A stretch of 62,916 bases of DNA from Microcaldota archaeon (GTDB taxonomy: Archaea; Micrarchaeota; Micrarchaeia; Micrarchaeales; Micrarchaeaceae). The notes beneath the pieces are model-generated. The model was not told the origin of the DNA, searched no databases, and saw only the letters and a program-made list of their open reading frames with translations. The DNA is taken from NCBI GenBank assembly GCA_021828155.1, contig JAKAST010000003.1, forward strand, positions 1-62,916, in the 5' to 3' direction. Position numbers and translations under genes: made by a program. Every line of letters begins with the position of its first letter. Position 1 is the first letter of the stretch. Shown here one piece after another: positions 37,858-54,595 of the stretch.

Positions 37858-40227
37858 TCATTCAAAGCCCTCCATGTGTTCCGCGTCTATGAGCGTTATG
37901 CGGCCCGATGTTATGTACATCTTGAGGATTTCGTTGGTGCCTGATGGCGTGCGGTACAGCGTGTTCTTGAACTCGTCCAGCCTGTCGGTGTTCATGAAAA
38001 CAAGGTATGTCTTCGCACCCTTGTACACCGGCACCTTCTTGAACTTGCTCGTCTGCGAGTATATCACTAGGTAAGTGCGCGCGCCGTGCAGTGCGACCAC
38101 CATGTCTGCTACGGGGCTCATGTCGAAATCGGTGAACACGTAGGCGTGCGTTACCATATACATCCTGAGTTTCTTGAACGTGACTAGGTACTCAAGGTCG
38201 TGGCCGCTCTGCGTTATCCATGCCTTTGGCGCATACAGATCGTCGGCAGTTACAAGGTCGCCGTGCACCACCAGCTGGTCGAGTATAGCATTGAGGTTGT
38301 TGTAGGTTAGGTTTACAGGCATGCCGTTGCTGCGTATGTTGTTTGCTATGCCCGCACGGATCTCGGCCTTTGAGAGGGGCATGTAGCGCCAGTGGTAATA
38401 CACGTTGAGCTTGTCGAATATGGATATTATGTCCCTGTACGGGAGCTTCACCTTTATGACATCGTGCTTTGGGAGGTGGGGCACGTCTATGTAAAAGTCG
38501 TCGCGATTGGGGGCGCGCACCAGAGTTACAAGCGCAACCACGATCACAAGCACTATGGCGAGTATTATGTACTGACTGTTTACTGCTACGGTTGGTTGGG
38601 GATGGCTTACCTTGTATATGAACGAACCTGAGAGCATGCTTATGTTGAACGCGAGGGTGCCGTAGAGCTCTGGCGAGCCGCTGGGCAGCGAGTAGTTTAT
38701 GATGCCATTGCTCACCATGCCGCTGGTCTTGTAGAGGTTGTTAAGGTTTATCGAATAGCTTATGCCTGAAAGAGGCTGACCCTCAGACTTCAGAAGCAAC
38801 GAGTACCTATTTGACGGGTAGTCGGCGCCGACGAGCGTTATTGTTATAGGAGACACATTGAACAGCGAACTCGCGTAGAGCTGGCCGGAGAAGCCCTGCA
38901 GCTCTGCTATGTATGAGCCGGGAGGCACAGGGAATAGCAGCGAGGTCAGGAATGTGAAGTTGCCGGAAGCGCTCAGGTACTGCAGCGGCAGCTCTGTTAC
39001 GTAGCTCATGTTTATTGTGTATACGCTGATGTGGGGCTGTATGTTTACAGGCACCTGAGAGCCAGTGAAAATTGACATTGTGAGCTGGGCGCTCTTGCCT
39101 GGTATAATGCTGCCGGGCATCGAGATGAATCCATGGTTGGCGTATGAAGGCACGGCGCTTAGCGTGACGTACCTGCTCTGCGGCGAAAGGCTGTAGTTGG
39201 CCGAATTGTATGCTACGGCGCGCAGGAACCCGCTTTCGAGCTTTGATTGGAGCGAGGCCGAATACAGGAGCGGTGGAGAGCTGAGCAGAACCCCTACACT
39301 GCTGTCAGTTGTTTTGTATTGATTGAGCTTCACAGTGGAAGTGCCCTGCGCGTAAGCCGGCAGCCAGAACATCAGCGACGCAGCGTGCGCTATGTCGGCC
39401 GCAGCATATGATGCACCAGGCCAGCTGCCAAGCACGTTGGAGAACGCAACTATTGAGCCGTTGGCAACATTCGTGTATGTTACGGGGCCATAGATGGAGC
39501 CCCCTACAAACGTGAACGTCGAGTTGGTGAAATAGAATCCGCTAGCGGGAGAGCGCTGCACTGTCTGCGTCATCAGGTAGGGCGGCACGGAGGGGTTCGG
39601 CACTATCACGCCATTGGTCAGCAGCATGTTCGCGAATCCCTGGCCGACGTATATTATGCTGTCGCCTTTGTTGAGGAGGTACTGCAGGAGCGTGGCATTT
39701 GTGCCGCTTACCGTCTGGAACATGAATTGGGGCATGAGCCCGTTCAGCATTATCAGCATCGAGTCGCCCGGCATTGACTGCAAACCGGCCGGCGTTACAT
39801 TATACAGGTCGGCTGAAGATCCTATTACGCCATAGCTGGCCAGATCCCGCGCAAGATATGTATAGGCCTGGCTTGCGGAAGCACAACCGGTGCACTCTGG
39901 GTAAGGATCAAGCAGGTATGTGCTCTGCGGAGGCCGCGATTTAAGCAGCGTGGCGTTGATTGTTATGGAGGTGGAGTTGGCCGACGAATACGAGAACAGC
40001 GCATACGGCACCTCTGTGGAGTTGAGGTCGTAGATCAGGAGGTTCTGGCCTGAAACAGCCGCGCTGAGGTACGTGGCGGGCGCCACAATGGGCTTAGGCG
40101 GATGTATGGTGGCAGCGTAACTGTGCAGCATCAGCCCGATATAAATCAGCGATCCCAGCAGCACCACTGCTAGTACCGCTATGACAATCAGTATGCGCTT
40201 TATGTTGGGCACGCGAAAGCACCGCAT
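37858..40227 (-). CDS. Large anchored surface protein at the end of the secretion locus
   Basis: 789 aa. One N-terminal helix (about 10-34), a large extracytoplasmic part (35-555) with many Asn glycosylation-type sites and a CxxC (PECTGCAS), a second helix (about 557-580, IILAIVLVIVVALVTLV), then a cytoplasmic domain of about 210 residues with alternating alpha/beta segments and a possible winged helix (NNLNAILDQLVVHGDLVTADDLY). Section 60-215 (LLIYDLNS, SMLIMLNGLMP, GDSIIYVGQGFANML) recalls a glutamine-amidotransferase-like fold. It follows the 47-aa gene by 6 nt. It could link an outside event to the cytoplasmic ATPase. No family named. Confidence 0.6.
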   Translation of the reverse strand: MRCFRVPNIKRILIVIAVLAVVLLGSLIYIGLMLHSYAATIHPPKPIVAPATYLSAAVSGQNLLIYDLNSTEVPYALFSYSSANSTSITINATLLKSRPPQSTYLLDPYPECTGCASASQAYTYLARDLASYGVIGSSADLYNVTPAGLQSMPGDSMLIMLNGLMPQFMFQTVSGTNATLLQYLLNKGDSIIYVGQGFANMLLTNGVIVPNPSVPPYLMTQTVQRSPASGFYFTNSTFTFVGGSIYGPVTYTNVANGSIVAFSNVLGSWPGASYAAADIAHAASLMFWLPAYAQGTSTVKLNQYKTTDSSVGVLLSSPPLLYSASLQSKLESGFLRAVAYNSANYSLSPQSRYVTLSAVPSYANHGFISMPGSIIPGKSAQLTMSIFTGSQVPVNIQPHISVYTINMSYVTELPLQYLSASGNFTFLTSLLFPVPPGSYIAELQGFSGQLYASSLFNVSPITITLVGADYPSNRYSLLLKSEGQPLSGISYSINLNNLYKTSGMVSNGIINYSLPSGSPELYGTLAFNISMLSGSFIYKVSHPQPTVAVNSQYIILAIVLVIVVALVTLVRAPNRDDFYIDVPHLPKHDVIKVKLPYRDIISIFDKLNVYYHWRYMPLSKAEIRAGIANNIRSNGMPVNLTYNNLNAILDQLVVHGDLVTADDLYAPKAWITQSGHDLEYLVTFKKLRMYMVTHAYVFTDFDMSPVADMVVALHGARTYLVIYSQTSKFKKVPVYKGAKTYLVFMNTDRLDEFKNTLYRTPSGTNEILKMYITSGRITLIDAEHMEGFE

Positions 40228-40233
40228 CGTGGG

Positions 40234-40377
40234 CTAGGCACCGCCCTCTCTGTTGCCACGGGCGAATATCTTGATAAACAGATTGGTGAGCGGGTTGGGC
40301 TGGTGCCCGAGGCGCTTCACTATTGTGTAGACGCGCACGTACTTCAGGCGCTTGCTCACCCTGACGTTGTATTTCAT
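40234..40377 (-). CDS. Small basic protein (47 aa)
   Basis: Starts 1 nt after the coiled-coil gene stop and ends 6 nt before the 789-aa gene, filling the gap. Product MKYNVRVSKRLKYVRVYTIV continues through PNPLTNLFIKIFARG; strongly basic, no membrane helix. Position and lack of spacing argue for a real gene. Function unknown; nucleic-acid or ATPase binding are possibilities. Confidence 0.5.
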   Translation of the reverse strand: MKYNVRVSKRLKYVRVYTIVKRLGHQPNPLTNLFIKIFARGNREGGA

Positions 40378-40378
40378 G

Positions 40379-41107
40379 CTATCCCTTGAGCTCCAGATAG
40401 CCCATCGACACCATCTTATTGAGCATCTGCTCCACTCTCGGAGCTGTGATCCGGTAGGTCTTTGAAAACTCCATTATGTCCATTGTGTCGCTGTGCGACT
40501 CTATCCAGTCCTCTATCATCACCATGAGGGATTCATCTGAATACGTCTCCAGCGCTGAGAGCCTTGCTGAGAGGTCTTTGTTTTCTTCGCTCAGCTGCGA
40601 GGCCTGCACCGTGAGGCCCTTGTTAGCGGCGGCGAGCTCTATGTTCAGGCGCTTTATCTCCCGGTACTCATTGAAGAGCGAATCGTAGTTGTTGAACAGG
40701 GAGCTGTAGCTCTGCGAGAGCGATGACAGCACGTCGTCTATCGCAGAATCCGCGTATTGGTATAGGTCGGAGGCATCGGCCGCATATAAGTCCGTTATGA
40801 GCGAGAGCACGCTGAGTAGGTTCTTAACCACGGCAAGCCTGCGCATCTTCTCGCTCGTGTCCAAGGCTATGGAGTACTGCACCTCAATCTGCTTTGGCTC
40901 CAGCGTTATTATGAAGAACAGGTACGGCTTCTTCTGTATGTCCCTGCTCTCGACAGAGAGCAGCACAAGCTTGTCGGGGCTTTCCTCTATGGAGAACATC
41001 TGTAGCGCTGAGAGCCTGGATGAGATGGCTGAGAAATTTCCGAGTAGTGTACCGCCGATGACAATCTCGGCTATTCTGGGCTCGATTATGCCAGTTACCT
41101 CAGCCAT
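40379..41107 (-). CDS. Coiled-coil protein with C-terminal winged helix
   Basis: 242 aa. Residues 1-90 are alpha/beta (EIVIGGTLLGNFSAI, PYLFFIITLEPKQIEVQYSIAL); about 110-195 form a coiled coil (LNIELAAANKGLTVQASQLSEE); the last 50 look like a winged helix (SKTYRITAPRVEQMLNKMVSMGYLELKG). It may be an adaptor or regulator. A TATA-like TAAAAAGATA precedes it (about 41133-41142), so the last three genes could also be transcribed separately. Confidence 0.6.
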   Translation of the reverse strand: MAEVTGIIEPRIAEIVIGGTLLGNFSAISSRLSALQMFSIEESPDKLVLLSVESRDIQKKPYLFFIITLEPKQIEVQYSIALDTSEKMRRLAVVKNLLSVLSLITDLYAADASDLYQYADSAIDDVLSSLSQSYSSLFNNYDSLFNEYREIKRLNIELAAANKGLTVQASQLSEENKDLSARLSALETYSDESLMVMIEDWIESHSDTMDIMEFSKTYRITAPRVEQMLNKMVSMGYLELKG

Positions 41108-41175: not shown

Positions 41176-41556
41176 TTAGGCTGCCTGCTCGGGCTTGCCT
41201 GCCAGCGCCGGCATGTAGCTCAGAAGCGACAGCAGGTACATCAGCACTATTATTGCCAGGCCGGCAAGCACCGCCATCAGGGAGCGTCCGGCAGCTATCA
41301 GCAGGCCCGCGAACAGCACGCCTATTACAACGTACGCTATCTGCTTCCTGACATAGGAGTCGCGCGCCTTTTTGTACTTCACATAGCACTCCTTGCACAC
41401 AACCAGCCTGTAGTTCTTCGCGTTCCTCGTTACGTTGCGCTTGAACCAGCGTATAGCCCGTATGACGTAGTCTTCCTGCACCTCTAGGCCATCAACGGCC
41501 CCGCCGCATATTATGCACCGCGGCTCGCTGGAAGCACGCTTTGAGTTTCTTGCCAT
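41176..41556 (-). CDS. Zinc-ribbon membrane protein
   Basis: 126 aa from ATG 41556 (in-frame TTG 41568 also possible). N-terminal zinc ribbon CIICGGAV and VCKECYVKYKK, then two helices (about 74-95 and 98-118). The cytoplasmic zinc domain plus membrane hairpin suggests an adaptor at the base of a membrane complex. Same strand, overlapping or touching the preceding gene. Confidence 0.6.
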   Translation of the reverse strand: MARNSKRASSEPRCIICGGAVDGLEVQEDYVIRAIRWFKRNVTRNAKNYRLVVCKECYVKYKKARDSYVRKQIAYVVIGVLFAGLLIAAGRSLMAVLAGLAIIVLMYLLSLLSYMPALAGKPEQAA

Positions 41557-41560
41557 AGCA

Positions 41561-41869
41561 TCAACCAAAATCTATAGTTGCCTCGTATATACGGCCCGAC
41601 TCTGCCAGCGCCTTCTGCTCGTCCGCCATGTTCATTGCGTCGTTTATCATTAGGTCGTCCATGCCGAGGCGCCTGAAAATGTTTGTCATGTCGGCCCTGC
41701 TCACGCCCGCCTTCTCCAGCATCGCCGCGAATGCCACTACGTTTATGTGCCGGTGGGCCTTCTCCATATCAGCGAAGAGCTTCTGTATGGAGCCCTCACT
41801 CAGCTTGTAGGCGATGAGCACGCGCCTCAGCTCAAGCCTGCTTATCGAGAACGTATCTTTGGCTGCCAT
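41561..41869 (-). CDS. Small helical protein coupled to the VirB4-like gene
   Basis: 102 aa from ATG 41869, chosen because GGAGGTG lies 6 nt upstream within the end of the ATPase gene. All-helical, charged (SISRLELRRVLIAYKLSEGS, VSRADMTNIFRRLGM), reminiscent of EF-hand-like or adaptor domains but without clear calcium loops. Notably, the C-terminus of the ATPase (LLISGGAQTNDIVGFLKSL) has a similar helical repeat style. Probably an ATPase partner. Confidence 0.6.
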   Translation of the reverse strand: MAAKDTFSISRLELRRVLIAYKLSEGSIQKLFADMEKAHRHINVVAFAAMLEKAGVSRADMTNIFRRLGMDDLMINDAMNMADEQKALAESGRIYEATIDFG

Positions 41870-41870
41870 T

Positions 41871-43385
41871 TCATGCACCTCCGGTCGCCGCAGATATTAT
41901 GCGGGTTATGAGCATATCCTCTATGCTCAGGCTCTTGAGGAAGCCGACTATGTCGTTGGTCTGCGCGCCGCCGCTTATCAGCAGCCGCACGAAGTCCAGC
42001 ATCTTTATCGACCTGCCCTGCGAGTCCACTGTGCTGAATATAGAAGTTATAGCGTCGCCGGGCACGTTGTACTCTATGAGCTTGTTCTTGAGCTCGTCGC
42101 CCTCGAACTGGTAGTCGCGCTGTATGAGCGCCGCTGAAAGCTCGCTCTGAGTGAGCACATCTGACATGTCGACGGTGTACACATATAGCGGTTCCTCGCC
42201 TTTTATGCGGTCCAGGACGAATACCTCCGGGAAGCGCAGCGCCGTCTGGAACGCCATGTCTACTGCGGCCTGGCCCACGCCGAACCTGCTTATCTCAGAC
42301 TTTATGAACTCCGAGAAGTTGAGCGATCCTTGCAGGTAGTTCATGAACTTCTCGAAGCGTATGCGGAGTATGAATGTGGTGCCCACATTCGAGAATATCG
42401 CCTCGTTTATGTCGGTGGGGTTCTGTGACGCGACTATGAGCCCGAACTGGTACTTCCTTCCCTCCCTTACTATTGTAACCGCGTCGCTTTTCTCGTCGCT
42501 CGCAACCTTCCAGGCCTCGTCGAGCACTACCAGCGTCTTCAGACCCTTGCCCTCGGCATAACCCTCGAAGCGCATGCGCTCCTTCAGGGTCTGCAGTATG
42601 AAGAGCGCAGCCAGCGCCCTGAATTTCTCGTCAGGCAGGTTCGACAGGTCTATGTCTACGAGGCCGGAGTTGGCAAGCTCCACCATGTCGAGCGTGCTCT
42701 TCCTGGCAAAGTAGTCTTCGCCCTCGCGCGCGAACTGCCTGAGCCTGTAAATCGCGTTCTCGAGCTCGGCCGGGTACTCGTAAGTGCCGTCCTGCAGGTG
42801 CTCCTCGAGTAGAGATATTGCATCTTTGAGCGTCGGCGCATCTTTGTTGGGAGGCGGCTTCTCTGATATTATGAAGCCGGCGTTGACGTATGCCTGCTCG
42901 AGCGCCTCCTCGGTGAGCCTGCGCTGCTCAGGGTATTCGCTTATGTCGGTAAGTATGTCGAACGAGGTTATTATCTGCTTCACGCGGTCTAAGGGCTTCA
43001 TGCCCGAGAGGTCCATTATGTTCAGGTAGTCGCCCTTGCCGAGCGAGATCACGGTGCCTCCGCTCTGGCGCACCCATGCCTTGTATTCCGAAGCCCAGTC
43101 TATTATCACGGCATTCGTGCCCCAGATGTAGCTGGCGCGTATCAGGAACGTCTTGACGAAGTAGCTCTTGCCCGCGCCTGTTATTCCGACTACCGCCATG
43201 TGCGGGTTGGTTAGATTTGCGAATGACCAGCTGAACGGCACCTTGAATATCTTAGTGGTGCCTATGAATATTGCCTTGAGCGGCTCGTTTATCAGTATGT
43301 TGGCCGGCGGCTCAGGCGGCCTCGAGAAGAAGGCGCGCTTCGCTATCTCGTTGCTCATTATGTGCTGGAACTTGAGCAGCGTCAT
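41871..43385 (-). CDS. VirB4/HerA-type secretion ATPase
   Basis: 504 aa. Walker A GITGAGKS at 67-74, Walker B TLVVLDEAWK at 284-293, followed by REGRKYQFGLIVASQNPTDI, the arrangement of VirB4/TraC/CedB ATPases of the HerA-FtsK superfamily. It lacks a membrane segment and the long VirB4 N-terminal domain; its first 60 residues are short. It likely drives DNA or protein transfer through the membrane components encoded upstream. A C-terminal helical part (about 410-504) may bind the small helical protein. Confidence 0.88.
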   Translation of the reverse strand: MTLLKFQHIMSNEIAKRAFFSRPPEPPANILINEPLKAIFIGTTKIFKVPFSWSFANLTNPHMAVVGITGAGKSYFVKTFLIRASYIWGTNAVIIDWASEYKAWVRQSGGTVISLGKGDYLNIMDLSGMKPLDRVKQIITSFDILTDISEYPEQRRLTEEALEQAYVNAGFIISEKPPPNKDAPTLKDAISLLEEHLQDGTYEYPAELENAIYRLRQFAREGEDYFARKSTLDMVELANSGLVDIDLSNLPDEKFRALAALFILQTLKERMRFEGYAEGKGLKTLVVLDEAWKVASDEKSDAVTIVREGRKYQFGLIVASQNPTDINEAIFSNVGTTFILRIRFEKFMNYLQGSLNFSEFIKSEISRFGVGQAAVDMAFQTALRFPEVFVLDRIKGEEPLYVYTVDMSDVLTQSELSAALIQRDYQFEGDELKNKLIEYNVPGDAITSIFSTVDSQGRSIKMLDFVRLLISGGAQTNDIVGFLKSLSIEDMLITRIISAATGGA

Positions 43386-43427: not shown

Positions 43428-44255
43428 TCACATCTGCTGGTCGAACGCCGACGCTATATCTGCGAACGAGTTCGGCATAGAGAAGTTGTACCTGAATAGG
43501 GTGTACAGCTCCCTGCCCACTATGCGGCTTAGCTGTAGGTCAAGCGAGCTCAGGGCTATCTGCAGCTGCTTTATCTGCGCGTCAAGCGCGTCCGTTGCCG
43601 CCTTCTCGGTTATGCCTACAGCCGTAGTCTCTGTATACATGAGCGTTGCTATCGGCTTCTCGCCCTGCGATATGCGGTCCATCTTAGCCTGCTCTATGTT
43701 TACGCGCCGCTGAAGGTCCGTAACAGTGACCTCGTTTGAGCCGCTCTGCAGTGCCCTTGACAGCTGGAACTCCTGGAACGAGCGCCTGCCCTCTATCTCA
43801 TCGCGCACCTTCTGCACGTCCATGCCGCACGAGAGCACGTGGAACTTGTATGGAAATCCTAGGCTCATTACAGCCCTCTCCCACATCTCCGGCGCTGCTG
43901 CCAGGCGTACCTCATCTTCCTCGGCAGCAGTTTCCTCCTTGAATGTGTATGCGAACAGGTTTGCGGTGATGTAGCCCGTGGCGTAGAACAGCCCGTTGAC
44001 GTTCTTGATTATTGCATTCTGGCCCTTCGTTATCGTGTAGTTCCTTGCAGGCTGGAACGTCATTCCCAGCACAGAGGTCAAAGCAGGCATGAGCAGGAAG
44101 TCGGCCCAGTTCATGGCTATGATGAATACGAGAGCGATGACAACCAGCACGAGCCCTATTATGGTGTATATGCCGTGCAGTGAGGTTAGTATGGCGAAGC
44201 TCAGCACTATTATCACGAGCGAGAAGATGAGGTATATTATGCCTTCCTCGTCCAT
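43428..44255 (-). CDS. Two-TM membrane protein with cytoplasmic domain (first paralogue)
   Basis: 275 aa. Two N-terminal helices (about 7-26 and 29-50), then a cytoplasmic part with an alpha/beta segment (NYTITKGQNAIIKNVNGLFY, ATGYITANLF) and coiled coil (TDALDAQIKQLQIALSSLD). Layout and neighbour resemble the VirB3 plus VirB4-N-terminal module of type IV systems, here separate from the ATPase. Its ATG abuts the stop of the 272-aa gene. Confidence 0.7.
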   Translation of the reverse strand: MDEEGIIYLIFSLVIIVLSFAILTSLHGIYTIIGLVLVVIALVFIIAMNWADFLLMPALTSVLGMTFQPARNYTITKGQNAIIKNVNGLFYATGYITANLFAYTFKEETAAEEDEVRLAAAPEMWERAVMSLGFPYKFHVLSCGMDVQKVRDEIEGRRSFQEFQLSRALQSGSNEVTVTDLQRRVNIEQAKMDRISQGEKPIATLMYTETTAVGITEKAATDALDAQIKQLQIALSSLDLQLSRIVGRELYTLFRYNFSMPNSFADIASAFDQQM

Positions 44256-45074
44256 TCACACCACCTGCTCCTCAAGACCCTTGCTTATCTGCTCGGTCAT
44301 AGTCGAGAACGGTATGAGCGCCTCCGGCTCTATGAACTTCAGTATGTTCTCGCCCGTTATCAGGCTGGGCGAGACGCCGAACACGGATCCGATGCCAGAC
44401 ATAAGCTCGCGCGCCTTCTGCTGCGCTGCGCTTATGGCTTCGTACTCCTTGCTGCCCGTTGCCGATATACTGGCATAGGACACCATCTCGAACGACATGC
44501 CTTTCGATATGCTGTCGAGCATGTTGTGGAGCATTGCCAGCTTGCCCTTGACTCGCTCCAGCTCCGCTGCAGGCGCGTTCTTGAACGTTAGATCGGCCTG
44601 CTCGTTCTCTGTGGCGCTTATAGTGTCGCGCAGCGTCTGTATGTAGGCGTCCTTGTTCATCACGTACATCTCGGTTGTGAAGCGCACCGGGTCACGGCTC
44701 ACGCCTATCAGCCTGCTCACCTGCCTCGAGAACTCGAGCCTCTCTGAGTCTGACATCTCGGTTGACGATCTGTATAGTGGTATAAGCACGTACACTGTAG
44801 CAACTATGTCGTCGCCCGACTTGTGGAGTATGGAATCGGCCGTGCTCGATATCCAGTAAGCGTCTTCGCTGCTCAGCACCACGTGCTTCTTAAGCCTCAG
44901 CAGCGGTCTGAACATGTAGAGGTAGTACCTCGAAGAGAAGCCCGCCACATCGAGTACGAGCGCCACTGCTAGTAAAACTATCTTCGCATACTGCGGCAAT
45001 GGCAGGGCGGCCGCTGCGGCAAGCACGAGCGCCGAGGCGAGGAAGAATGCTATCATGACATAGAGCTTGTTCAT
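44256..45074 (-). CDS. Two-TM membrane protein with cytoplasmic domain (second paralogue)
   Basis: 272 aa, same plan as the neighbour: two helices (about 5-25 and 29-47), then VVLSSEDAYWISSTADSILH, IVATVYVLIPLY and a helical region with MTEQISKGLEEQVV at the end. Likely the other half of a VirB3/VirB4-N-like membrane platform. A TATA box at 45126-45135 suggests that transcription of the ATPase half of the locus begins here. Confidence 0.7.
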   Translation of the reverse strand: MNKLYVMIAFFLASALVLAAAAALPLPQYAKIVLLAVALVLDVAGFSSRYYLYMFRPLLRLKKHVVLSSEDAYWISSTADSILHKSGDDIVATVYVLIPLYRSSTEMSDSERLEFSRQVSRLIGVSRDPVRFTTEMYVMNKDAYIQTLRDTISATENEQADLTFKNAPAAELERVKGKLAMLHNMLDSISKGMSFEMVSYASISATGSKEYEAISAAQQKARELMSGIGSVFGVSPSLITGENILKFIEPEALIPFSTMTEQISKGLEEQVV

Positions 45075-45168: not shown

Positions 45169-46329
45169 TCATATGAAGCCGCGCATGCGTCCGCCCATCC
45201 TGCTCGCTCCGCCTATAAGGTCAGCGATCTGCACAACGAAAGCGTATGTGACCGCTATGATAAGGCTGGGATAGAACAGTATAAGGAGCCAGAAGCTGCT
45301 CATTGCGGACTGCACCTCCTGTATGGCTGTCACCTCTGGGCTCGATGCTGATATAGTAGTCTGGAAGTTGCTGGGTGAGGAGGCGAAGCGCTGCAGCTGC
45401 ACCGAAGCGCCGTAGAGTGCCGACGTAACTTGCGGCGAGGTGAAGTAGTATGCCACCGAGAACAGCGTGGGCATTATCAGGTAGAAGCCAAGAGCCAGCG
45501 CGATCATCATGCCGCCCAGCGCGCGCGTAGGTATGAGCATGCGCAGCACAATTCCGGGTATCAGAAACACGGGTATGGCCGCTACGGCGAAGAATATTAT
45601 AAGGTAGTATTCAGCATACAGAGCCAGGATACCGTCGTTTATGAAGCCTGATATGGTTGCGATCGGCTCCACTACGAACATGTCAAGCGGAAGTTGCACG
45701 GCCTGGACTATCGAACCGATTGTACTCTTTGGAATTGGTAGTTCAGGTACAAACACGGTCACATCGATGGACGATATATAGAACCAGAAGTAGTATGTGT
45801 CGTACATTGCGGTGTAGACGCTCTCAGCCGACCCTATGGTGTTTGTTATCAGGTAAAGCGATGTGGCGTAGGGGTTTATGGGCCCTACTATCATCGATGG
45901 TACGAGGCCGAACATCACCGCGCTGATGTACAGAAATAATCCAACTATTATCATGCTGGCCACGGCCTCGTACATCTCGCCTATGCCGAAGTTCCTGAGC
46001 CTGTCGTTCTTGAACCCCGCTCCCACTGCGAATATCGAGGCCGCAAGAAGCATGGCTATCAGCACTACGATTATCGCTATGGGCGCGTCGCCCTTCCAGG
46101 CGTTGTAGACCTGGGTGTTTATCGGGCAGTACCATGGTGCGTTCACGCTTATGTTATGCGCAAGCGATGGAGTCAGCAGGCCGCAACCTGTTGCACTGGT
46201 AGACGACCCGGACGGCCCAGTAAGCGGCGATGTCGGGATCCTTGCACTGGCGTATGGCGCACTGATCAGCATGGCCAGAAGTGCAGCTGCGAGGAGCGCC
46301 GCAACCAGTGCAAGTTTCGTCTTATCCAT
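45169..46329 (-). CDS. VirB6/CedA-like polytopic membrane protein 6
   Basis: 386 aa. Signal-like N-terminus (LALVAALLAAALLAML), external loop, then six or more helices. Shared features: amphipathic Glu-containing helix FGIGEMYEAVASMII and the signature GIVLRMLIPTRALGG followed 13 residues later by Pro. Last of the six tandem paralogues and 8 nt from the previous one. The C-terminal tail is basic (RMGGRMRGF). Comparable in topology to VirB6/TrbL of type IV secretion and CedA of the archaeal Ced system; that identity is inferred. Confidence 0.75.
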   Translation of the reverse strand: MDKTKLALVAALLAAALLAMLISAPYASARIPTSPLTGPSGSSTSATGCGLLTPSLAHNISVNAPWYCPINTQVYNAWKGDAPIAIIVVLIAMLLAASIFAVGAGFKNDRLRNFGIGEMYEAVASMIIVGLFLYISAVMFGLVPSMIVGPINPYATSLYLITNTIGSAESVYTAMYDTYYFWFYISSIDVTVFVPELPIPKSTIGSIVQAVQLPLDMFVVEPIATISGFINDGILALYAEYYLIIFFAVAAIPVFLIPGIVLRMLIPTRALGGMMIALALGFYLIMPTLFSVAYYFTSPQVTSALYGASVQLQRFASSPSNFQTTISASSPEVTAIQEVQSAMSSFWLLILFYPSLIIAVTYAFVVQIADLIGGASRMGGRMRGFI

Positions 46330-46336: not shown

Positions 46337-47968
46337 CTATACGAAGCTGGTCATCATGCTCATGAAGTCTATTCTCTCGCCTATCGCTTTCGAGAAGTCA
46401 ACTATAAAAGCGTCTACTATTATGAAGTTCAGGAAGGGCACGAACGTGAGGCCCATTATCAGATAGCCGAGCTTCGTAACGAATGCAGACAGGTATGCAG
46501 GTATGGAGTTAGTGAAGACTATCCCCACAATCAGCTGCACCGCGTTTGATATGTCAACTGCAAGGTTCGCAGTCATAAGCTGCGGGTCTATGAATCCGTA
46601 AGTGATGGTAACTAGCATGGGGTATATCAGGCCCACGCCGAGCCCTATGGCTATCATCGCCCCGCCGAAGGTGCGCGTGAACCCGAAGGTGCGCGCCACT
46701 ATGCCTATAGTGACGAAGAGCGATAGGAACAGCAACGAGCTCGAGAGCAGTATGACCTGCACCTGGTTGAGGACCAGCGCAGTCAGAAGGGCCGAAGCCG
46801 CAATGCTCAAGATGTCTGCCGTACCGCCGGGCACCAGGCTGTCCAGCTTGGTGCTTATCCCTACATTCGGCTGGGTTGGTATGTGGAAGTCCAACGCTAT
46901 GCCAGGAGAGAAGCCGATTATGTAGCCCGATATTATGAACGTGTACAGGTAGCCATATGCACTGTTGGTGAACACTCCGATGTCGCACTGCGAGAGATTG
47001 AATATTGTGTTTATGTTAGGGGCAGCGCATGTGCCAGGTAGAAGACCAACGCTGGCGTACGCGTGCTGCGGGTTCAGGAAGAACATGTAGGAAAGAGCGG
47101 CGAAGGCCAGCAGCAGCACTATCGATAATATGGCCTCATATATCTGCAGGCGCGCCCAGCCCTTTGCATTCTGGCTTGCTATCAGGCCGCTCAGGGCGTA
47201 GACCAGCGCGGCCACGGATATTATTAGGAGCGTGGCTATCAGCGCTATGCCGAACCAGTCCATTGGATTGAACGGCAGATTCGTATGCTGTGCGGTTCCG
47301 GTGCCAGATGCTGCATAGACCACGAGCGTGGTGGATGTTGAATAGCCTGTAGCTGTGTCTAGCGACGTGATGTTGTAGCTGCCTGCTGCAGCGTCAGGTA
47401 TCGTATACGAAACAACACCGGTGCCTGCACCGAACAGCTGGCCGTTGATCTCAAGCTCGTCGAAGTCCGTGCTCGGGTTGCCAGTTGCCTGCAGGAGAAT
47501 GTTGGTTCCCTGCGCTGCTGGATTGGGGCTCACGGAAAGCGAGGGTGCATTGGTGGCGCTCTGGGCCGCTGTGCTATTCACTATAAGCGCTATCGTGTTT
47601 GCGATTCCGGCGGATAGGTCACGGCTCGTGATGACGTAGCTGCCGTACGGTGCGCCGGCTGTCAGTGTAGTCACTACAGAGCCGGTGCCAGATTTCAGGA
47701 TTTGCGGAGTTGAAGCACCAGGCGGAGTCTCAAGGAGCTCAAGGCTGTCGGCGGGATTGCTGGCTATCGCTTGTATTGCCACGGTCTGGCCGGGCGCCGC
47801 TGGATTCGGGTATACTATCAAGGAGGGCGGAGCCTGCGCCGATGCCAACTGGAAGACCAGCAGCGCTGTGACCAGCATTGCAAGGAGCAGCGCCGCATGA
47901 CCTGCAGGGCTAAGCCTGGACAAGCGCGCACCGCGCACTGTAACAGGTTCCGCTGCGTAAGCAATCAT
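46337..47968 (-). CDS. VirB6/CedA-like polytopic membrane protein 5 with two Ig-like domains
   Basis: 543 aa. N-terminal helix, then two external Ig-like repeats (each beginning with the SVSPNPAAQG/IVYPNPAAPG pattern, about 50-140 and 143-222), then the polytopic part with LQIYEAILSIVLLLAF and signature GIVARTFGFTRTFGG plus Pro 13 residues on. The extracellular domains could contact another cell or a pilus. Overlaps the previous gene by 4 nt (ATGA type). Confidence 0.77.
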   Translation of the reverse strand: MIAYAAEPVTVRGARLSRLSPAGHAALLLAMLVTALLVFQLASAQAPPSLIVYPNPAAPGQTVAIQAIASNPADSLELLETPPGASTPQILKSGTGSVVTTLTAGAPYGSYVITSRDLSAGIANTIALIVNSTAAQSATNAPSLSVSPNPAAQGTNILLQATGNPSTDFDELEINGQLFGAGTGVVSYTIPDAAAGSYNITSLDTATGYSTSTTLVVYAASGTGTAQHTNLPFNPMDWFGIALIATLLIISVAALVYALSGLIASQNAKGWARLQIYEAILSIVLLLAFAALSYMFFLNPQHAYASVGLLPGTCAAPNINTIFNLSQCDIGVFTNSAYGYLYTFIISGYIIGFSPGIALDFHIPTQPNVGISTKLDSLVPGGTADILSIAASALLTALVLNQVQVILLSSSLLFLSLFVTIGIVARTFGFTRTFGGAMIAIGLGVGLIYPMLVTITYGFIDPQLMTANLAVDISNAVQLIVGIVFTNSIPAYLSAFVTKLGYLIMGLTFVPFLNFIIVDAFIVDFSKAIGERIDFMSMMTSFV

Positions 47969-49071
47969 ATCAATCCCTTCAGCGTATTTTTAGACGACAG
48001 GCTCGGTGCCCCGAGGAAGTCGCCAACCGTTTCAGCGAAATCAAACGCTATTATTAAGCTGAGGGCCAGCGCGAACACAGTGTAGAACGAAGGCTCCAGC
48101 ACGTTCTGCACAAACATCGATATGAAGTACGTGGCTGTAATCGATTGCACCCCCGAATTCGCGAGCGCGGCGAGCGGGCTGAACGGGCTGAACTGGCTGG
48201 TCAGCTGGCTCACTGCGCTGCTTAGGCCTACGGACGACACCGCCGCCAGGGCAACGCTGTTCACAGAGAGCGAAAAGTAGAGCAGTAAAGGGAACAGCAC
48301 GTAGAAGCCGAGGAACATGCCCAGGAAGGCGCCGCCAGCTGCACGCGTCCAGGGAATCGTCCTTAGCACTATGCCCAGATAAAGGAAGACCGGAAACACA
48401 GAATAGATGAGCGACAGGAAGAATACGATTCCGAGGCTGAACGCGATGAGGGCGCCGGTAACTGACATGAGTATGTTGAGCAATCCCACGAGAGTCAAGT
48501 AACCGGCGAGCGGCTTGAACGACACGCCGAAAAGGTCCGGCTCTAGATTGATTGCCAGGTTGCCAAGAAGGTCTGTGAGGTCGTACGTCGCTCCGATCTC
48601 TATCAGCGGATATACCAGGTTCAGGGAGGTGTCAGTCAGCCTTGTGCATGCGCCGTAGAATATGCTGCTATTGAACGCATTGCCTGCTATATGTAGCACG
48701 CTGGCCGGCCCCGACACTGTGCCGTTTGAAGCCGACACTGTGCCGATGAATATAAGCACTATGAGCGCCGTTATGAGTATCTCGCCGAGCTCTGTCCTGC
48801 TGAACCTTGTCAGCTTGTCTATCTTCAGCGCAGCGCCCAGCGCATATGTGATCCCTGCCACAGTGACCATGATTAGTATCAGTATCAGCGCCACAGGCAG
48901 GAGGCTGCCTAGCGCCGATGGGTACGAGAGCACGGTCGGGACGTTTGATATTGCAGTGTTGCAGAAGCCTGCTGCGCTTGCCGAATTTGCCCCTGGAAGC
49001 AGAGCTGTGATTGCAAGAAGCGCGGCCAAGGCGCCGATTGCGATGCGAACCTTTCCATTCATGCAGCTCAC
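47965..49071 (-). CDS. VirB6/CedA-like polytopic membrane protein 4
   Basis: 368 aa. Signal-like start (IGALAALLAITALLPG), helix at 55-80, Glu helix SRTELGEILITALIV at about 91-105, signature GIVLRTIPWTRAAGG at 233-247, then Pro 13 residues later. No large external domain, so it may represent the basic form of the family. Overlaps both neighbours by 4 nt. Confidence 0.76.
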   Translation of the reverse strand: MSCMNGKVRIAIGALAALLAITALLPGANSASAAGFCNTAISNVPTVLSYPSALGSLLPVALILILIMVTVAGITYALGAALKIDKLTRFSRTELGEILITALIVLIFIGTVSASNGTVSGPASVLHIAGNAFNSSIFYGACTRLTDTSLNLVYPLIEIGATYDLTDLLGNLAINLEPDLFGVSFKPLAGYLTLVGLLNILMSVTGALIAFSLGIVFFLSLIYSVFPVFLYLGIVLRTIPWTRAAGGAFLGMFLGFYVLFPLLLYFSLSVNSVALAAVSSVGLSSAVSQLTSQFSPFSPLAALANSGVQSITATYFISMFVQNVLEPSFYTVFALALSLIIAFDFAETVGDFLGAPSLSSKNTLKGLI

Positions 49072-50525
49072 ACTAGTCTCGATAGCCCGGCGAGGGCCGT
49101 GTCGCCCCCGAGCACCCCGGAAAGCCCTATTATGCCTGTAAGCACCACGAGTAAGTTTATCAGGGGCAGGAAGTACGCAGCAATGCCGTCAACACCGTAA
49201 ATCCTCACGAAGTCGTATAGCAAATTGAGCGACTGGTCGCGGCTGCAGTCAATCGGGGCGTCGAGGAACGAGGGCACAGAATTCGGCGAAGCTCCTCTGA
49301 TTATTGCAATAACCTGCGTTCCCGGAAGCAGGAAGTAGCCGATGACCGCAAGTTCCGCGTCTGTAAGCTTGCCCTGATAGGGCCAGCAGCCGTCATGCTG
49401 CGCCACAGTAGACATGCTCGGCAGAGAGTAGAAGTTCGTCAGGTAGGGCGTCTCGTTGGACGGATCGGCGCTGGCCGGGATGAATGTCAGGTTTGACGTG
49501 AATATGTCGTTGAATCCGTATGCGGCCGGCGTGCTGTTGGCCGCGAACGTGTATGGCGCGCTAGACTGCTGGGAGTTGTACCCCATGAGGCCCGCGAGGC
49601 CGTTGCCCAGAGCAAGGTACTCTATTGAGAACAGGGCAGGATAGAAGAGTATGCCGCCGACAGCGAACGCTATCAGCAGGCCGCCCAGCCTGCGCGTGAG
49701 GAACACTGCCCGCAGTATTATGCCGCCGAACAGCAGGAAGGGCCATGCATACAGGAATATGGCCGTGATTGTGAGCTGCGCCATGAAGGATTCGACTGCC
49801 GTAATCATCAGAGTGCCCAAGGCGCCAAAGCCGTCGTATATCATCTTGAGGCCCGCGAACGGAGTTATGCTGAACTTCATGGTCAGTAAGGGCGGGACTA
49901 CCGGTATGAGGCATTGTATTGGAATCAGCTCGCCTGGCGCTATGCATAGATTTATGTTGGGGCTCATAGTTGAAAGAAATCCCAGCCATCCGTCGACCAG
50001 GAAGGCGTCGTTCAGTTGCGTCGCGGTCTGGTTGGTAAGGTTGGCGAGCACCACGCCCGTAGCAGCGAGCGGGTAGTCTATCATGCTGGTGAAAGAGGGC
50101 GAGCTGGACTGCGCCTGGCCTGCTATGGAGCAGAGGCCCGGGAACGAACCAGAGCTAATAAGCAGTGAGGTTGAAGACGACAGCGCATCCAAATTGGAGT
50201 TCGCGTGCAGGCCGTTGCATAGGCCGGTTATGGTAGAGGTGTTGAGCAGCGTGTACGAATTGGCGACAGAGAAGAACATGTAGCCGACGACCAGGAGCAG
50301 CGCCAGCATGGCCATCACCATGATGCCTGTGCCGATCAGCTGGTACCCCTCGCTGCGCGCTGCGGCCTTGACGGTGTTGTTGTTCAGCAGCGAGCCAATC
50401 ATGTACCATGCCCCGACCAGCACGGCATCTATCAGCAATGCCAGGCCCACAAGCGGCATGAGCGCGGATTTTACGGAACTGTATGAGGTTATTGAAAGCA
50501 TCGCTGCAATAATTGTCGGTAGCAT
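49068..50525 (-). CDS. VirB6/CedA-like polytopic membrane protein 3
   Basis: 485 aa. N-terminal helices, Glu helix AARSEGYQLIGTGIMVM, two long external loops (about 85-200 and 320-445) with Cys pairs, signature GIILRAVFLTRRLGG followed 13 residues later by Pro, and C-terminal helix. The external loop after the signature (PYTFAANSTPAAYGFNDIF onward) is absent from the shorter paralogues. The next gene overlaps its end by 4 nt. Confidence 0.75.
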   Translation of the reverse strand: MLPTIIAAMLSITSYSSVKSALMPLVGLALLIDAVLVGAWYMIGSLLNNNTVKAAARSEGYQLIGTGIMVMAMLALLLVVGYMFFSVANSYTLLNTSTITGLCNGLHANSNLDALSSSTSLLISSGSFPGLCSIAGQAQSSSPSFTSMIDYPLAATGVVLANLTNQTATQLNDAFLVDGWLGFLSTMSPNINLCIAPGELIPIQCLIPVVPPLLTMKFSITPFAGLKMIYDGFGALGTLMITAVESFMAQLTITAIFLYAWPFLLFGGIILRAVFLTRRLGGLLIAFAVGGILFYPALFSIEYLALGNGLAGLMGYNSQQSSAPYTFAANSTPAAYGFNDIFTSNLTFIPASADPSNETPYLTNFYSLPSMSTVAQHDGCWPYQGKLTDAELAVIGYFLLPGTQVIAIIRGASPNSVPSFLDAPIDCSRDQSLNLLYDFVRIYGVDGIAAYFLPLINLLVVLTGIIGLSGVLGGDTALAGLSRLV

Positions 50526-50533
50526 TGTTCCAC

Positions 50534-51697
50534 CTACAGGCTGCTCCAGAAGCTTGCCGCGCCCTCTATGCCAGAATCAAGAGCCCTTGTGAGCCCCATT
50601 GCGAAACCTATCGTTATCGAGATGTTGACCGCGAAGAGCACCACCGCTATGAATATGAACTGGGATATCTGCGTTATGAGCGTATGCAACTGGCTCATCA
50701 TGACAGGAGGCGAGAGGCTCGTCAGATAGGTGCCCGCGGAGCTGCCGAGGAAGTTGCTGAGCACGCTTAACGGCACGGCGACCGGCCCGAGCGTCACCTC
50801 CCCAGATAGCGGTATATTGGAGAACAGGCTGGTTGGCAGCGATGCCAGAGCGTAGGTGCTGCCGAGGCAGCTGGTGCATCCGTATTCCGGATTTGAGGGA
50901 CTGAAGATCCACGACACAGCATAGCTGTCGAAAGCTATAGTCAGCGGGTAGATTATGTAGAGCGCAATTGCTATGGCGAGCACAGCATTGGCGGTTGAGC
51001 GCAGGCGCCCGCCGGTAAACGAGAGCGAGCGCAGGGCTATTGCTATGGGCAGTAGCACTACGAACGCGGTATACTGTATTATGGGAAGGGCAAGGTACTG
51101 GAGGAACAGCATGCCTACGGTGAGAGTCACTAAAGGCGCGAGCACTGCAAAGAAGTCATCAGCCATAATTCCATAGGTTATGCCTGCGTCATAGCCGTAC
51201 GTGACATTGGCTTCGAAGATCGGCGTGTCTATCACTGAAATGTCTGGTATATCAAGCTGGGTGCCCAAGGCCTGGAATATGCGCGCGTCTATCGAGTAGG
51301 TTATGCCCAGCGAGTATATCGTAGTGAGAAGCCGCAGGCCAGTGTTGAGCGCGAGGTTGCCCACGTAGTAATCGGCGAACCCGAACGGAGACAGCCCGGA
51401 GGGCACCCCTGCCGCGGGTATCAGGCTCCGCGCCATCGACGTGCTGACGCTGCATGCGATTTGCGATGTCGCAAGGAGCGCGGCTATGATGATTACGCTG
51501 ATAAGCAGTTGTGGTATCTCGGCCCTTGCGGCCTCGGTCAGCTTGCCCCTTGTGGCTCCTGGAAGGAGCTTGCCGAGCATGTAGATTAAAGCGAGCACCA
51601 TGAACGAGACGAGTATAACTATGTAATTGATGCCTAGGAAGCCGGTCACGTAGCTGCCGCCACCGCCGTACGCGCAGGTGCTGGCTATCAGAGTCAT
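50534..51697 (-). CDS. VirB6/CedA-like polytopic membrane protein 2 (divergent)
   Basis: 387 aa. Same topology: Glu helix AARAEIPQLLISVIII, then the signature region in altered form AIALRSLSFTGGRLRS with the later YIIYPLT proline kept. It is the only one of the six without the full GG motif. CxxC in the external loop (GCTSCLG). Probably a paralogue with a distinct role in a hetero-oligomer. Confidence 0.72.
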   Translation of the reverse strand: MTLIASTCAYGGGGSYVTGFLGINYIVILVSFMVLALIYMLGKLLPGATRGKLTEAARAEIPQLLISVIIIAALLATSQIACSVSTSMARSLIPAAGVPSGLSPFGFADYYVGNLALNTGLRLLTTIYSLGITYSIDARIFQALGTQLDIPDISVIDTPIFEANVTYGYDAGITYGIMADDFFAVLAPLVTLTVGMLFLQYLALPIIQYTAFVVLLPIAIALRSLSFTGGRLRSTANAVLAIAIALYIIYPLTIAFDSYAVSWIFSPSNPEYGCTSCLGSTYALASLPTSLFSNIPLSGEVTLGPVAVPLSVLSNFLGSSAGTYLTSLSPPVMMSQLHTLITQISQFIFIAVVLFAVNISITIGFAMGLTRALDSGIEGAASFWSSL

Positions 51698-51706: not shown

Positions 51707-53308
51707 TCATGCGATTTTGAACTTGCCTATGCCCAGCTTCAGGCTGCCGCCGAGCATGCGCGCTATCGCGTCGCCCACGGCAAACGTTATCACTATATCA
51801 AATATGAGCAGTATAAGCTGTATGACCAAAGGAAAGACGTAGCCCAGTATGAGGTTCAGCGATGGGAAGATGCTGGCAGTGGGCAGCACTGTGTGCCACC
51901 CTGCATCGAAGCCGTATATGCCGTAGGTTCCGCCTGTGAAAACCGATACAACAGTAAGCACGGCGTTTACCGGGGTGCAGAGCGTTATGTCCAGGAAGCC
52001 GCTGGCTATGTTAACGCCTGTGCTGGCTGTGTTGGTTGCGAAGTTGCATGCCAGGGTGGTGGGAGTAGGCTCGATGCTCGGCAGGTAGTTCGATATAGGA
52101 AGGTTGAACATCAGTAGCAATGCCGGGAACACCAGCGATATGGATATGCCTATGGCCAGCATTGTGCCGCCGATCCCGCGCATGAACGGTATGGCGCGAA
52201 GCACTATGCCGAGCGGCACGAAGAAGGTCAGGCCGAGGAGCGCGAACTCAACCAGCTTGTCGTACAGCAGCTGGAATATTGTGAGTATTGGTATGACAAC
52301 AACGCCAAGGATGTCCTTCACGAACGACGATCCAGGCAGCGCGAGACTAGATTCTACGTAGCTGGACTTGAACAGCGTGTACGTGCCCCCGAACTGCACC
52401 GAGCCGACGAACGGTATTGGCAGATATGGTATCCAGAGCTCTGCCGTGAAGCTCTTGGCGAAGGATATGCCCTCCGCAAGCCCGAATATGGCAGAGAATG
52501 CGTTGTTCGCGTTTGTCAGCTGCTGGCCGATATAGCTGTTCAGGTCTGCGCTGTAGACGCCGGCCAAGTTGGCGGAAGCATAAGCACTCAGTGTGCTTGA
52601 ACTGCCGGCCACCGGCTGATTGCCGGTAAAGGCATACGCAACTGCGCTGAGCACAGCCAGCACAGCGAATATCGACATAACTATGAGGACGCTCTTCGTC
52701 ACCTCCCAGAGCTCGGCCTTGTACCAGCCCTTGAAGCCGCTGATGTTTATCACCTCGCCTATCATGAACGCTAGCCCTATGAGCAGGAACGAGAGCATCA
52801 GCCCTATGAGCGCTATCGGCACAGAGTTGGTTATGCACGAGACCGCATCGCGCATCGGAAACGTGCTTGCGGTCGAAGTTGGCATCGCCGATATCGTGGT
52901 AGTGTTTGAGGTGCCGCTGCTGACCAGATAAAGCACAGTCGGAGAACCTGCGGCATAGTTGCCTATGTAAAAGTTAATCTGCGTCTTGCCTGACGCTATC
53001 GGCGAGGTTATGGTTATTTCAGGCGGAGGCACGAGCGTAGGCGGCGGCGGTGCAGGCGGTACCGATGTATACGCTGTGAACAGCTCGCTCACCATTGTGG
53101 GTGATGATACATGGCCCACTGTGTACGCAACATGGTATTCGCCCACGGGCAGGCTGGACGACGCGGAGTACGATACATTAACGGCGGGCGAGGGCGCAAT
53201 ATGGCCGAATAAGGGACAGAACGGCACTTGCAGCGACTGGGCGCCCGCGCTGGGCACTAGAACGAAAAGAAGTGCAGTGAGCAAGAGGATCGGCGCGACC
53301 TGTTTCAT
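51707..53308 (-). CDS. VirB6/CedA-like polytopic membrane protein 1 with Ig-like domain
   Basis: 533 aa. Signal peptide (PILLLTALLFVLVPSAGA), external beta-sandwich with a proline hinge (about 25-150, VPPAPPPPTLVPPPE at 83-97), membrane part from 162. Glu helix KAELWEVTKSVLIVM at 197-211; signature GIVLRAIPFMRGIGG at 367-381 with Pro395. The first of the series. TATA box ATTTATAAAT at 53331-53340 would place the transcript start at about the ATG, so the mRNA is probably leaderless. Confidence 0.78.
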   Translation of the reverse strand: MKQVAPILLLTALLFVLVPSAGAQSLQVPFCPLFGHIAPSPAVNVSYSASSSLPVGEYHVAYTVGHVSSPTMVSELFTAYTSVPPAPPPPTLVPPPEITITSPIASGKTQINFYIGNYAAGSPTVLYLVSSGTSNTTTISAMPTSTASTFPMRDAVSCITNSVPIALIGLMLSFLLIGLAFMIGEVINISGFKGWYKAELWEVTKSVLIVMSIFAVLAVLSAVAYAFTGNQPVAGSSSTLSAYASANLAGVYSADLNSYIGQQLTNANNAFSAIFGLAEGISFAKSFTAELWIPYLPIPFVGSVQFGGTYTLFKSSYVESSLALPGSSFVKDILGVVVIPILTIFQLLYDKLVEFALLGLTFFVPLGIVLRAIPFMRGIGGTMLAIGISISLVFPALLLMFNLPISNYLPSIEPTPTTLACNFATNTASTGVNIASGFLDITLCTPVNAVLTVVSVFTGGTYGIYGFDAGWHTVLPTASIFPSLNLILGYVFPLVIQLILLIFDIVITFAVGDAIARMLGGSLKLGIGKFKIA

Positions 53309-53330: not shown

Positions 53331-53340
53331 ATTTATAAAT
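53331..53340 (-). promoter_or_regulatory. Promoter of the six-gene membrane-protein unit
   Basis: ATTTATAAAT, centred 27 nt before the ATG at 53308. Spacing fits leaderless transcription. It lies only 11 nt past the stop of the upstream gene, so it allows separate control of the polytopic proteins. Confidence 0.5.
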
Positions 53341-53351
53341 GCACTCTGGGG

Positions 53352-54113
53352 TCAGTGCTTCAGCATTGCAAAGCGCTTCATGTACATCTCGCTCTGCACG
53401 ACAACCAGGAAGGGCAGCACGAAGAGCGAGTCTATTACAAGCACGATATACCTAGAGAGCTGCGTGCCGCTCGCCGCCACGAATATCAGGTCTATGGCGC
53501 TGAGGAGCAGTACAGCTATGACAAGCCACAGCAGGAAGTAGTCGAGGCGCCTAACGAAGAATGCTGCGCTGGCGCGCATGGCGCGAACAATCCTGCGGTC
53601 ATCTATCACTATAGATGCTGGGGCATAGAAGAATAATGGCGTAAGCAGCAGGCCGGCTACGGCCGTGATCACGCCCGAGTACCTTAAGCTGTAGGTTGCG
53701 GCATTTACGACTATCAGTATGAACGTGAACAGGAGCAGCACGATGAAGACCCTGCCGGTGTAGGCCTCGAGTCCCCGCATTACCTCTTGCGTAACGCGGG
53801 TGCGGGTCCTGCTGTGCTTCACTATGATGTTTATAGCCACAATCGCGAAGCTCAGGAATATGAGCGAGAATAGCACGGCAATGACCACCACGGCCACGTC
53901 TATTATATTAAGGTTCAGGTAGACGCTGGCGGTGCGCAGGAATATGGCGCCCAGGTCGTTGTACGTGGGGAACGATGCGAATACCGGGATAAGGAACGCT
54001 ATGATGAACGCGAGCGAGAATGCGAGTATGAGCTTTAGGTGCTTCGTGTATGTGTCTGCAGCGTACTTCAGCACGTTTGTCAATTTAATCGCCGTTTCAA
54101 CGCTAACGCTCAA
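53352..54113 (-). CDS. Six-TM membrane protein of the secretion locus
   Basis: 253 aa with about six helices. Between helices lies a basic amphipathic loop (KHSRTRTRVTQEVMRGLEAYTG) and ASIVIDDRRIVRAMRASAAF, features of the membrane domain found in glycerophosphodiester phosphodiesterases and DUF7544-like archaeal proteins. No enzyme domain. TTG start at 54113. Sits between the VirB2-like gene and the polytopic series. Role unknown; possibly assembly or lipid interaction. Confidence 0.65.
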   Translation of the reverse strand: MSVSVETAIKLTNVLKYAADTYTKHLKLILAFSLAFIIAFLIPVFASFPTYNDLGAIFLRTASVYLNLNIIDVAVVVIAVLFSLIFLSFAIVAINIIVKHSRTRTRVTQEVMRGLEAYTGRVFIVLLLFTFILIVVNAATYSLRYSGVITAVAGLLLTPLFFYAPASIVIDDRRIVRAMRASAAFFVRRLDYFLLWLVIAVLLLSAIDLIFVAASGTQLSRYIVLVIDSLFVLPFLVVVQSEMYMKRFAMLKH

Positions 54114-54175
54114 TGCTCAGCAAAGGAATAAAAGGCATGCGCAGGCGATTGCTGGCTGAATTGCGGCTCATGGCT

Positions 54176-54595
54176 TCATGGTGCGGTAACATTGTGGCAG
54201 ATACTGCTATAGAACGCCGAGGTAGAGGTAAAGCCCTGACCTGTTATAGCGCCGAGTATCGGCCCTGCGAGCATTGAGATTATAACTCCTATTATGCCTC
54301 CGAATATCAGGCCCATGCCGTAGCCCTGTAGTGTGCCCTTGCTCTGGCCTGGCAGGACGTGCCCAATGGCGTACATCACAGCCCCGACAAGCAGCAGCAC
54401 CAGGCCAAGGATGAACACGCCGGTGTGCACCGCGCCGTAAAGCTGGCATAGCGGATATGCTATAGTAGAATTAGTTATGTTGAGGCTTGTTGTGCCGCCT
54501 GCTGCCAGAAGAGAGGTAAATGATCCAAACACTGCAAGTAAGTATACAAGTTTTAGCATTCTGCCAAACCATGTCCTAAGTTCAAGTACGGTCAC
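54176..54595 (-). CDS. VirB2/TrbC/CedA1-like small two-TM protein
   Basis: 139 aa from GTG 54595, or 127 aa from ATG 54559, which begins directly with a signal peptide (MLKLVYLLAVFGSFTSLLAA). Mature part: two hydrophobic helices (GVFILGLVLLLVGAVMYAIG and LIFGGIIGVIISMLAGPIL) joined by a short polar glycine-rich loop (HVLPGQSKGTLQGYG), flanked by Cys residues. This is the layout of conjugative pilins VirB2/TrbC and of archaeal CedA1. First gene of the locus. Assignment rests on topology and context. Confidence 0.68.
   Translation of the reverse strand: MTVLELRTWFGRMLKLVYLLAVFGSFTSLLAAGGTTSLNITNSTIAYPLCQLYGAVHTGVFILGLVLLLVGAVMYAIGHVLPGQSKGTLQGYGMGLIFGGIIGVIISMLAGPILGAITGQGFTSTSAFYSSICHNVTAP

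Follow-up and report, generated by a model that had tools for sequence, protein, structure and literature searches.

What kind of machine does a micrarchaeon encode when it places a run of polytopic membrane proteins beside a VirB4/HerA-type ATPase on its chromosome? The question is raised by a window of 62,916 nucleotides (the whole stretch of DNA analyzed here; contig JAKAST010000003.1, positions 1 to 62,916 of the forward strand, assembly GCA_021828155.1, Microcaldota archaeon). Inspection of its open reading frames (ORFs) revealed 15 co-directional genes, all on the minus strand, running from 54595 down to 37858. They are referred to as A to O in the order of transcription: a pilin-like gene (A), a gene for a protein with six transmembrane (TM) segments (B), six polytopic genes (C to H), two genes for two-TM proteins (I and J), the ATPase gene (K) and L, M, N, and O. 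Neighboring pairs, including E/F, F/G, K/L, and L/M, overlap by 4 to 8 bp, as expected of a single operon. An initial annotation of this DNA had described a one-strand cluster at 37858-54595 in a DPANN archaeon. All of the ORFs that it named do lie on the minus strand, and the phylum is Micrarchaeota. Its count of five accessory genes does not hold, since four genes follow K and the total is 15 rather than 16.

We conclude that the locus, with good probability, encodes a translocation machine of the same kind as Ced/Ted and type IV secretion systems (T4SSs), domesticated on the chromosome and equipped with six channel subunits that are not interchangeable, and that it probably serves exchange with a host or between cells. 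The proposed relation to Ced and T4SSs is supported by the CedA model, which matched only F, by the best match of K (CedB), by the first rank of TrwL for A, and by the TrwK folds retrieved with J. Most telling is that the VirB6/CedA-like genes, six in number, make up an array that is both fixed and ancient; this fixedness had been overlooked in the initial annotation.

The array occupies positions 1 to 6 with C (51707..53308), D (50534..51697), E (49068..50525), F (47965..49071), G (46337..47968), and H (45169..46329), all on the minus strand. Profile comparison with hhalign placed C to H and the single channel protein of a second, compact locus (see below) in one superfamily (prob 98-100), and judged in this way the six polytopic proteins are paralogs. 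The topology of the channel proteins, with a signal peptide, an outer N terminus, five TM segments, a large outer loop that joins TM2 to TM3, and an inner C terminus, is that of the five-TM VirB6 model. Lysine and arginine together account for 16.5% of residues on the inside (two loops) and about 1% on the outside (three loops), and the first and second outer loops each contain one conserved cysteine. F itself has a signal peptide, five TM segments, the N-out/C-in orientation, and a large outer loop bearing the cysteine; a fold search with F against the PDB returned noise only.

When the NCBIfam CedA model was run against the whole genome, the sole match fell inside F (48184-48504; E 4.2e-5). 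Two of 36 channel-family members were matched (best 5.3e-6), and no other NCBIfam model matched more than a single member. The 36 members have no recurring Pfam family, and assignment of C to H to an unrelated transporter family was rejected on these two grounds. Across genomes, the CedA model found matches in 40 of 116. Those with placeable coordinates fell in members of the channel superfamily, with E-values for further members down to 4.9e-7, and Sulfolobus acidocaldarius was the only control genome matched. None of the matches rose above the curated cut-off. Because all of these scores lie far under the family cut-off, they indicate distant kinship, not equivalence.

Two members of the array carry additions ahead of the channel domain. 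G has an N-terminal extension with two similar, Ig-like-looking repeats on its outer side, and C has a proline-rich N-terminal stretch. The lengths of both proteins differ greatly among relatives.

The number of channel genes is constant. All 35 loci of the window's order that have both B and I, the window being one of them, contain exactly six. Nine genomes of other families were examined for arrays, and eight of them gave contiguous ones; counted by coordinates, each of these 13 arrays again held six channel genes. Five of the genomes (G060, G062, G063, G126, and G151) carry two arrays of six each, G115 and G066 carry one array of six and one that is apparently split over contigs, G069 carries one array of six, and G094 has the compact single channel gene only. 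In a tree of 132 channel domains, the array positions require 7 changes, compared to a minimum of 6 and a mean of 88.9 after shuffling. Single branches set off positions 1, 2, 5, and 6 and the compact group, with support of 89, 84, 98, 57, and 96, respectively. Positions 3 (E) and 4 (F) are not confined to a single branch in this quick tree; constraining either of them to one clade raised the likelihood, by 24.6 for position 3 and by 15.0 for position 4. Since each position behaves as one lineage, phylum-wide in the case of C, the array looks ancestral, and its six positions are most simply read as ancestral and kept distinct. VirB4 motors are usually hexameric, and the number of channel genes matches this. 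If a channel is indeed assembled from six ordered paralogs, it would be a new architecture in the superfamily, and one would have to ask why a single pore protein gave way to six fixed ones.

Directly after several of the six-gene arrays, we noticed proteins of 1084 to 1640 aa with one TM segment and no Pfam match (L206:10673-15595, L209:16332-19901, L211:12750-16001, and L213:212-4123). They are possible surface proteins or substrates.

The motor was approached through K (41871..43385, minus strand), which had been annotated as a VirB4/HerA-type ATPase. Its best NCBIfam match is CedB (7.9e-19, below the equivalog cut-off). K aligns to residues of about 390 to 830 of VirB4-type models, that is, to the C-terminal half only. 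Its P-loop (GITGAGKS) occupies residues 67 to 74, and the protein starts about 66 residues upstream of it; K is thus a VirB4/CedB C-terminal ATPase domain without the VirB4 N-terminal half. J (43428..44255, minus strand), which adjoins K in nearly all loci, was expected to consist of a VirB3 hairpin fused to the N-terminal part of VirB4, an expectation that was set down before the fold result was seen. The five best PDB matches of its predicted model (pLDDT 83) were all chains of the R388 VirB4 protein TrwK (prob 0.93-1.00, E 0.035-0.28, TM-score about 0.3-0.4). As the fold of J best matches TrwK, VirB4 is read as split between J/I and K. I (44256..45074, minus strand), a paralog of J, likewise has a TM hairpin, followed by a cytoplasmic alpha/beta domain. 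In a search of 126 proteins from the plasmids pKEF9, pNOB8, R388, and pCF10, the J/I profile ranked the VirB3 protein PrgI first and TrwM third, with prob below 10. Sequence and predicted structure together make a VirB4-class motor assembled from two genes a well-supported reading, with J/I supplying the hairpin and a VirB4 N-terminal-like domain and K the ATPase domain. The earlier description of I and J as VirB3-like is better amended to a VirB3-like hairpin joined to a VirB4 N-terminal-like domain; a plain VirB3 was rejected because of the excessive length of these proteins and their VirB4-like fold. L (41561..41878, minus strand) is a stand-alone version of the small C-terminal domain of K, with profile cross-matches between the two in 51/51 loci. 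Assignment of K to a HerA-NurA repair operon was also considered and rejected, since K best matches CedB and a search of 41 genomes of the order yielded no NurA. In one family, the K gene is interrupted in frame by an intein that contains a LAGLIDADG-like endonuclease domain (L178:2710-5757; Pfam Intein_splicing, 5e-16).

A (54176..54595, minus strand) encodes a VirB2/CedA1-like, pilin-like protein of 139 aa, with an N-terminal signal or TM segment followed by a two-TM hairpin. It forms one family with the pilins of the compact locus (hhalign prob 98). Against the same 126 plasmid proteins, the pilin profile ranked the R388 VirB2 protein TrwL first (prob 64), followed by a small TM protein of pKEF9 (prob 4). 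NCBIfam pilin models gave no match for A, and a compact-locus pilin matched Pfam T4SS_pilin weakly (E 0.2) over nearly the full profile. Comparison of A with the N-terminal TM pair of D resulted in prob 85, whereas values for B, I, J, M, and O were below 20. A pilin/channel kinship has been reported for CedA1/CedA and VirB2/VirB6 (PMC9905601), and the resemblance between A and the N terminus of D would represent the same kinship.

The second, compact locus of the phylum consists of a pilin gene, a single channel gene, I/J, and a divergent K, usually followed by N or another small gene. Its K, too, finds its best NCBIfam match in CedB (1.7e-29, below the equivalog cut-off). The compact locus also occurs in the window's order (4 genera checked), including the cultivated Ca. 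Micrarchaeum chromosome; downstream of it in this order (L201-L204) are genes for a 213-aa protein, a 2-TM protein, a 3-TM protein, and a P-loop protein. The window's own genome, about 85% complete, showed no such locus.

To survey gene order, 50 loci of relatives were fetched and iterative profiles were built. The order A to O is identical in about 45 genera from two families of the window's order, which provides the conservation that the initial annotation had asked to see, and most of the shorter loci are cut off by the end of a contig or of the sequence that was fetched. A copy of K with 63 to 96% identity, nearly always full length, is carried by 56 of 60 close relatives. A strong match to K was obtained in 245 of 295 Micrarchaeota genomes and in 89 of the 96 high-quality ones. 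It should be noted that counts in fragmented genomes are lower bounds and that profiles seeded from the window's order may let distant members escape. In other families of the phylum, the block J-K-M-N-O is kept, and the pilin and channel genes may sit elsewhere in the genome. Codon-level comparison with one congener showed all 15 genes to be under purifying selection (dN/dS 0.04-0.20), with K evolving slowest (0.04) and A, C, F, G, M, and O fastest (0.14-0.20). Positive selection at a host interface was rejected, as dN/dS was not elevated in this comparison. The channel proteins are the most variable in length (coefficient of variation up to 0.26, compared to 0.01 for K), and it is the outer parts of the machine proteins that vary most in both length and sequence. 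The cultivated symbiont Ca. Micrarchaeum harzensis (complete chromosome CP060530; Ca. Micrarchaeum sp. A_DKE) carries the locus, near 806-826 kb, which makes the proposed function directly testable in co-culture.

Taken together, these data suggest how the machine might be built. C to H would be the non-interchangeable subunits of one hetero-oligomeric channel, most simply with one copy of each around a six-fold motor, and their variable N-terminal outer domains would face the partner cell. A may form a short pilus or collar, O and M may be further components of the membrane or surface, and N and L could act as cytosolic partners of the motor. Such a machine would serve to pass macromolecules between the micrarchaeon and a cell attached to it; these could be DNA, the cargo of Ced, or protein. 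Exchange with a host cell is the most likely use, and the import of DNA is about as plausible here as the transfer of proteins. A bolder version of this proposal is that Micrarchaeota ancestrally own a new T4SS/Ced-type class, defined by an obligate hetero-hexamer channel encoded by six ordered genes, often present in two versions per cell and dedicated to host exchange; we put this forward tentatively, with more doubt than conviction.

Several results weigh against placing the locus with Ced and T4SSs. The CedA match of F reached 21 bits, compared to a family cut-off of 330, and Pfam TrbL/VirB6 had no match in the window's genome. No link from the channel proteins to bacterial VirB6 emerged with Foldseek or hhalign, the Foldseek E-value of J was no better than 0.035, and no VirB8, VirB9, or VirB10 was recognized. 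NurA was detected in 0/41 genomes of the order, in which DprA gave three weak or partial matches, and this near-absence speaks against the DNA-processing routes that are tied to DNA import elsewhere. HerA-NurA DNA processing has been proposed to feed Ced and Ted. The lack of NurA in these 41 genomes, which do encode HerA-like ATPases of roughly 590 aa, is also an odd gap for archaea in its own right. Together with the near-absence of DprA, it counts against reading the locus as a strict Ced-type importer, in which six versions of one DNA pore would bring in DNA from host or kin for repair or as a source of nucleotides. This reading has in its favor that no named family matches F better than CedA or K better than CedB, and that DNA and RNA synthesis is reported to be incomplete in the cultivated relative (PMC8975820). 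However, the locus lacks a DNA-processing gene, and the parallel, simple pilin-VirB6-J-K locus looks like a better candidate for a plain importer of this type, so that we regard strict DNA import as possible but rather doubtful. Delivery of proteins to the host, or docking on it, by a T4SS-like export or contact machine has different evidence in its favor: the Rickettsia rvh T4SS also has five divergent VirB6-like copies (PMC2653234), T4SS genes of Patescibacteria were reported to be essential for epibiont life (PMC12102498), the outer parts of the proteins are the most variable, and big single-TM proteins lie downstream of several arrays. It is a credible candidate that falls short of being probable, as no convincing VirD4 coupling protein was found in the 41 genomes, no candidate substrate was identified, and dN/dS is not elevated.

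The near-universal chromosomal core, the strong purifying selection, and the fixed neighborhood would also suit a housekeeping machine of the envelope, for example, one that assembles the surface layer, membrane proteins, or lipids with a T4SS-type core and no longer handles intercellular cargo. That J-K-M-N-O is retained in genomes whose arrays are located apart from it points in the same direction, but a VirB2-like pilin and a Ced-like compact relative have been retained and the outer extensions are highly variable, which renders this reading unlikely. An integrated conjugative plasmid or integrative and conjugative element would explain why VirB4-, VirB2-, and VirB6-like parts occur within one operon. 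Nevertheless, Pfam Relaxase, the relaxase family searched, matched in 0/41 genomes; VirD4 gave two marginal matches in the 41, one of them exactly at the cut-off and none in the window's genome; and the VirB11 family (T2SSE) had no Pfam match among the locus proteins, although T2SSE ATPases occur in 41/41 genomes. The initial annotation, which had seen no relaxase, VirD4, or VirB11 in the locus and had considered a plain conjugative plasmid unlikely, was right on both counts. Outside Micrarchaeota, the survey covered plasmids, phages, and viral contigs, and no close relative was found there. Since a flanking gene is, in addition, conserved across genera, an integrated element was rejected and is very improbable. 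The reading that we prefer remains a domesticated chromosomal machine with six distinct channel subunits.

The remaining genes are less readily assigned. B (53352..54113, minus strand; 253 aa, six TM segments) was found in the 35 loci of the window's order and in family f11, and has a weak match to the NCBIfam model BPSS1780, below its cut-off. M (41176..41568, minus strand), a neighbor of K throughout the phylum, has a zinc-ribbon-like N terminus (CxxC...CxxC) followed by two TM segments. N (40379..41107, minus strand), present in compact loci too, combines an alpha/beta domain, a coiled coil, and a C-terminal winged-helix-like segment. It is adjoined phylum-wide by O (37858..40227, minus strand), a protein of 789 aa with an N-terminal TM segment, a large outer domain, a second TM segment, and a cytoplasmic C-terminal domain. 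Pfam and PDB sequence searches returned nothing usable for B, N, or O. On the plus strand, the cluster is flanked by a topoisomerase VI subunit B gene (36223..37857), which is convergent to it here and in most relatives, and by a divergent carbamoyltransferase gene (54805..56511).

A phylum-wide chromosomal machine related to Ced and T4SSs is an obvious candidate for how DPANN archaea draw what they need from their hosts. Within the main text of the paper on Ca. Micrarchaeum harzensis (PMC8975820), few transporters, incomplete synthesis of DNA, RNA, and lipids, and filaments at host contacts are described, and VirB, secretion, and pili are not mentioned. A literature search that left out preprints and most subscription journals found no paper describing the machine.

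Among known systems, Ced of the Sulfolobales (CedA, CedA1, CedA2, and CedB) shares with the locus a CedB-type ATPase, a CedA-like channel protein, a chromosomal location, and the lack of a relaxase; by description, CedA1 and A can also be set side by side as two-TM, pilin-like proteins. In contrast to the six ordered CedA-like genes in Micrarchaeota, Ced has one CedA (joined by CedE in Saccharolobus). The Micrarchaeota locus further differs in its motor, which is split between J/I and K, in the extra conserved genes B and L to O, in that NurA was not found, and in the phylum that carries it. Ted of the Thermoproteales (TedA, TedB, and TedC) follows a three-part plan of pilin, channel, and VirB4 and most resembles the compact Micrarchaeota locus, with TedA and TedC compared by description. 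It has one channel gene and no six-gene array; in having a single channel gene, the compact locus agrees with Ced and Ted, where one per system is found (two with CedE). The inner-membrane complex of R388 (TrwL, TrwM, TrwK, and TrwI) is similar in that its VirB4 corresponds to J plus K, TrwL ranks closest to A, and the five-TM topology is of the VirB6 type. Unlike the T4SS of R388, the locus has no relaxase, clear VirD4, recognizable VirB8, VirB9, or VirB10, or VirB11, and neither sequence nor fold connects its channel proteins with TrwI. The T4SS of Patescibacteria is likewise kept in reduced, host-dependent cells (PMC12102498), but it is a bacterial system of the MPF_FATA type with a TrsD coupling protein. 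The Rickettsia rvh T4SS differs from the locus as a bacterial diderm machine with five copies, and there is no sign that the two duplications share common descent. As an analogy, however, with its divergent VirB6-like paralogs, its variable flanking domains, and its obligately host-associated microbe (PMC2653234), it is the nearest parallel for the multiplied channel genes of Micrarchaeota.

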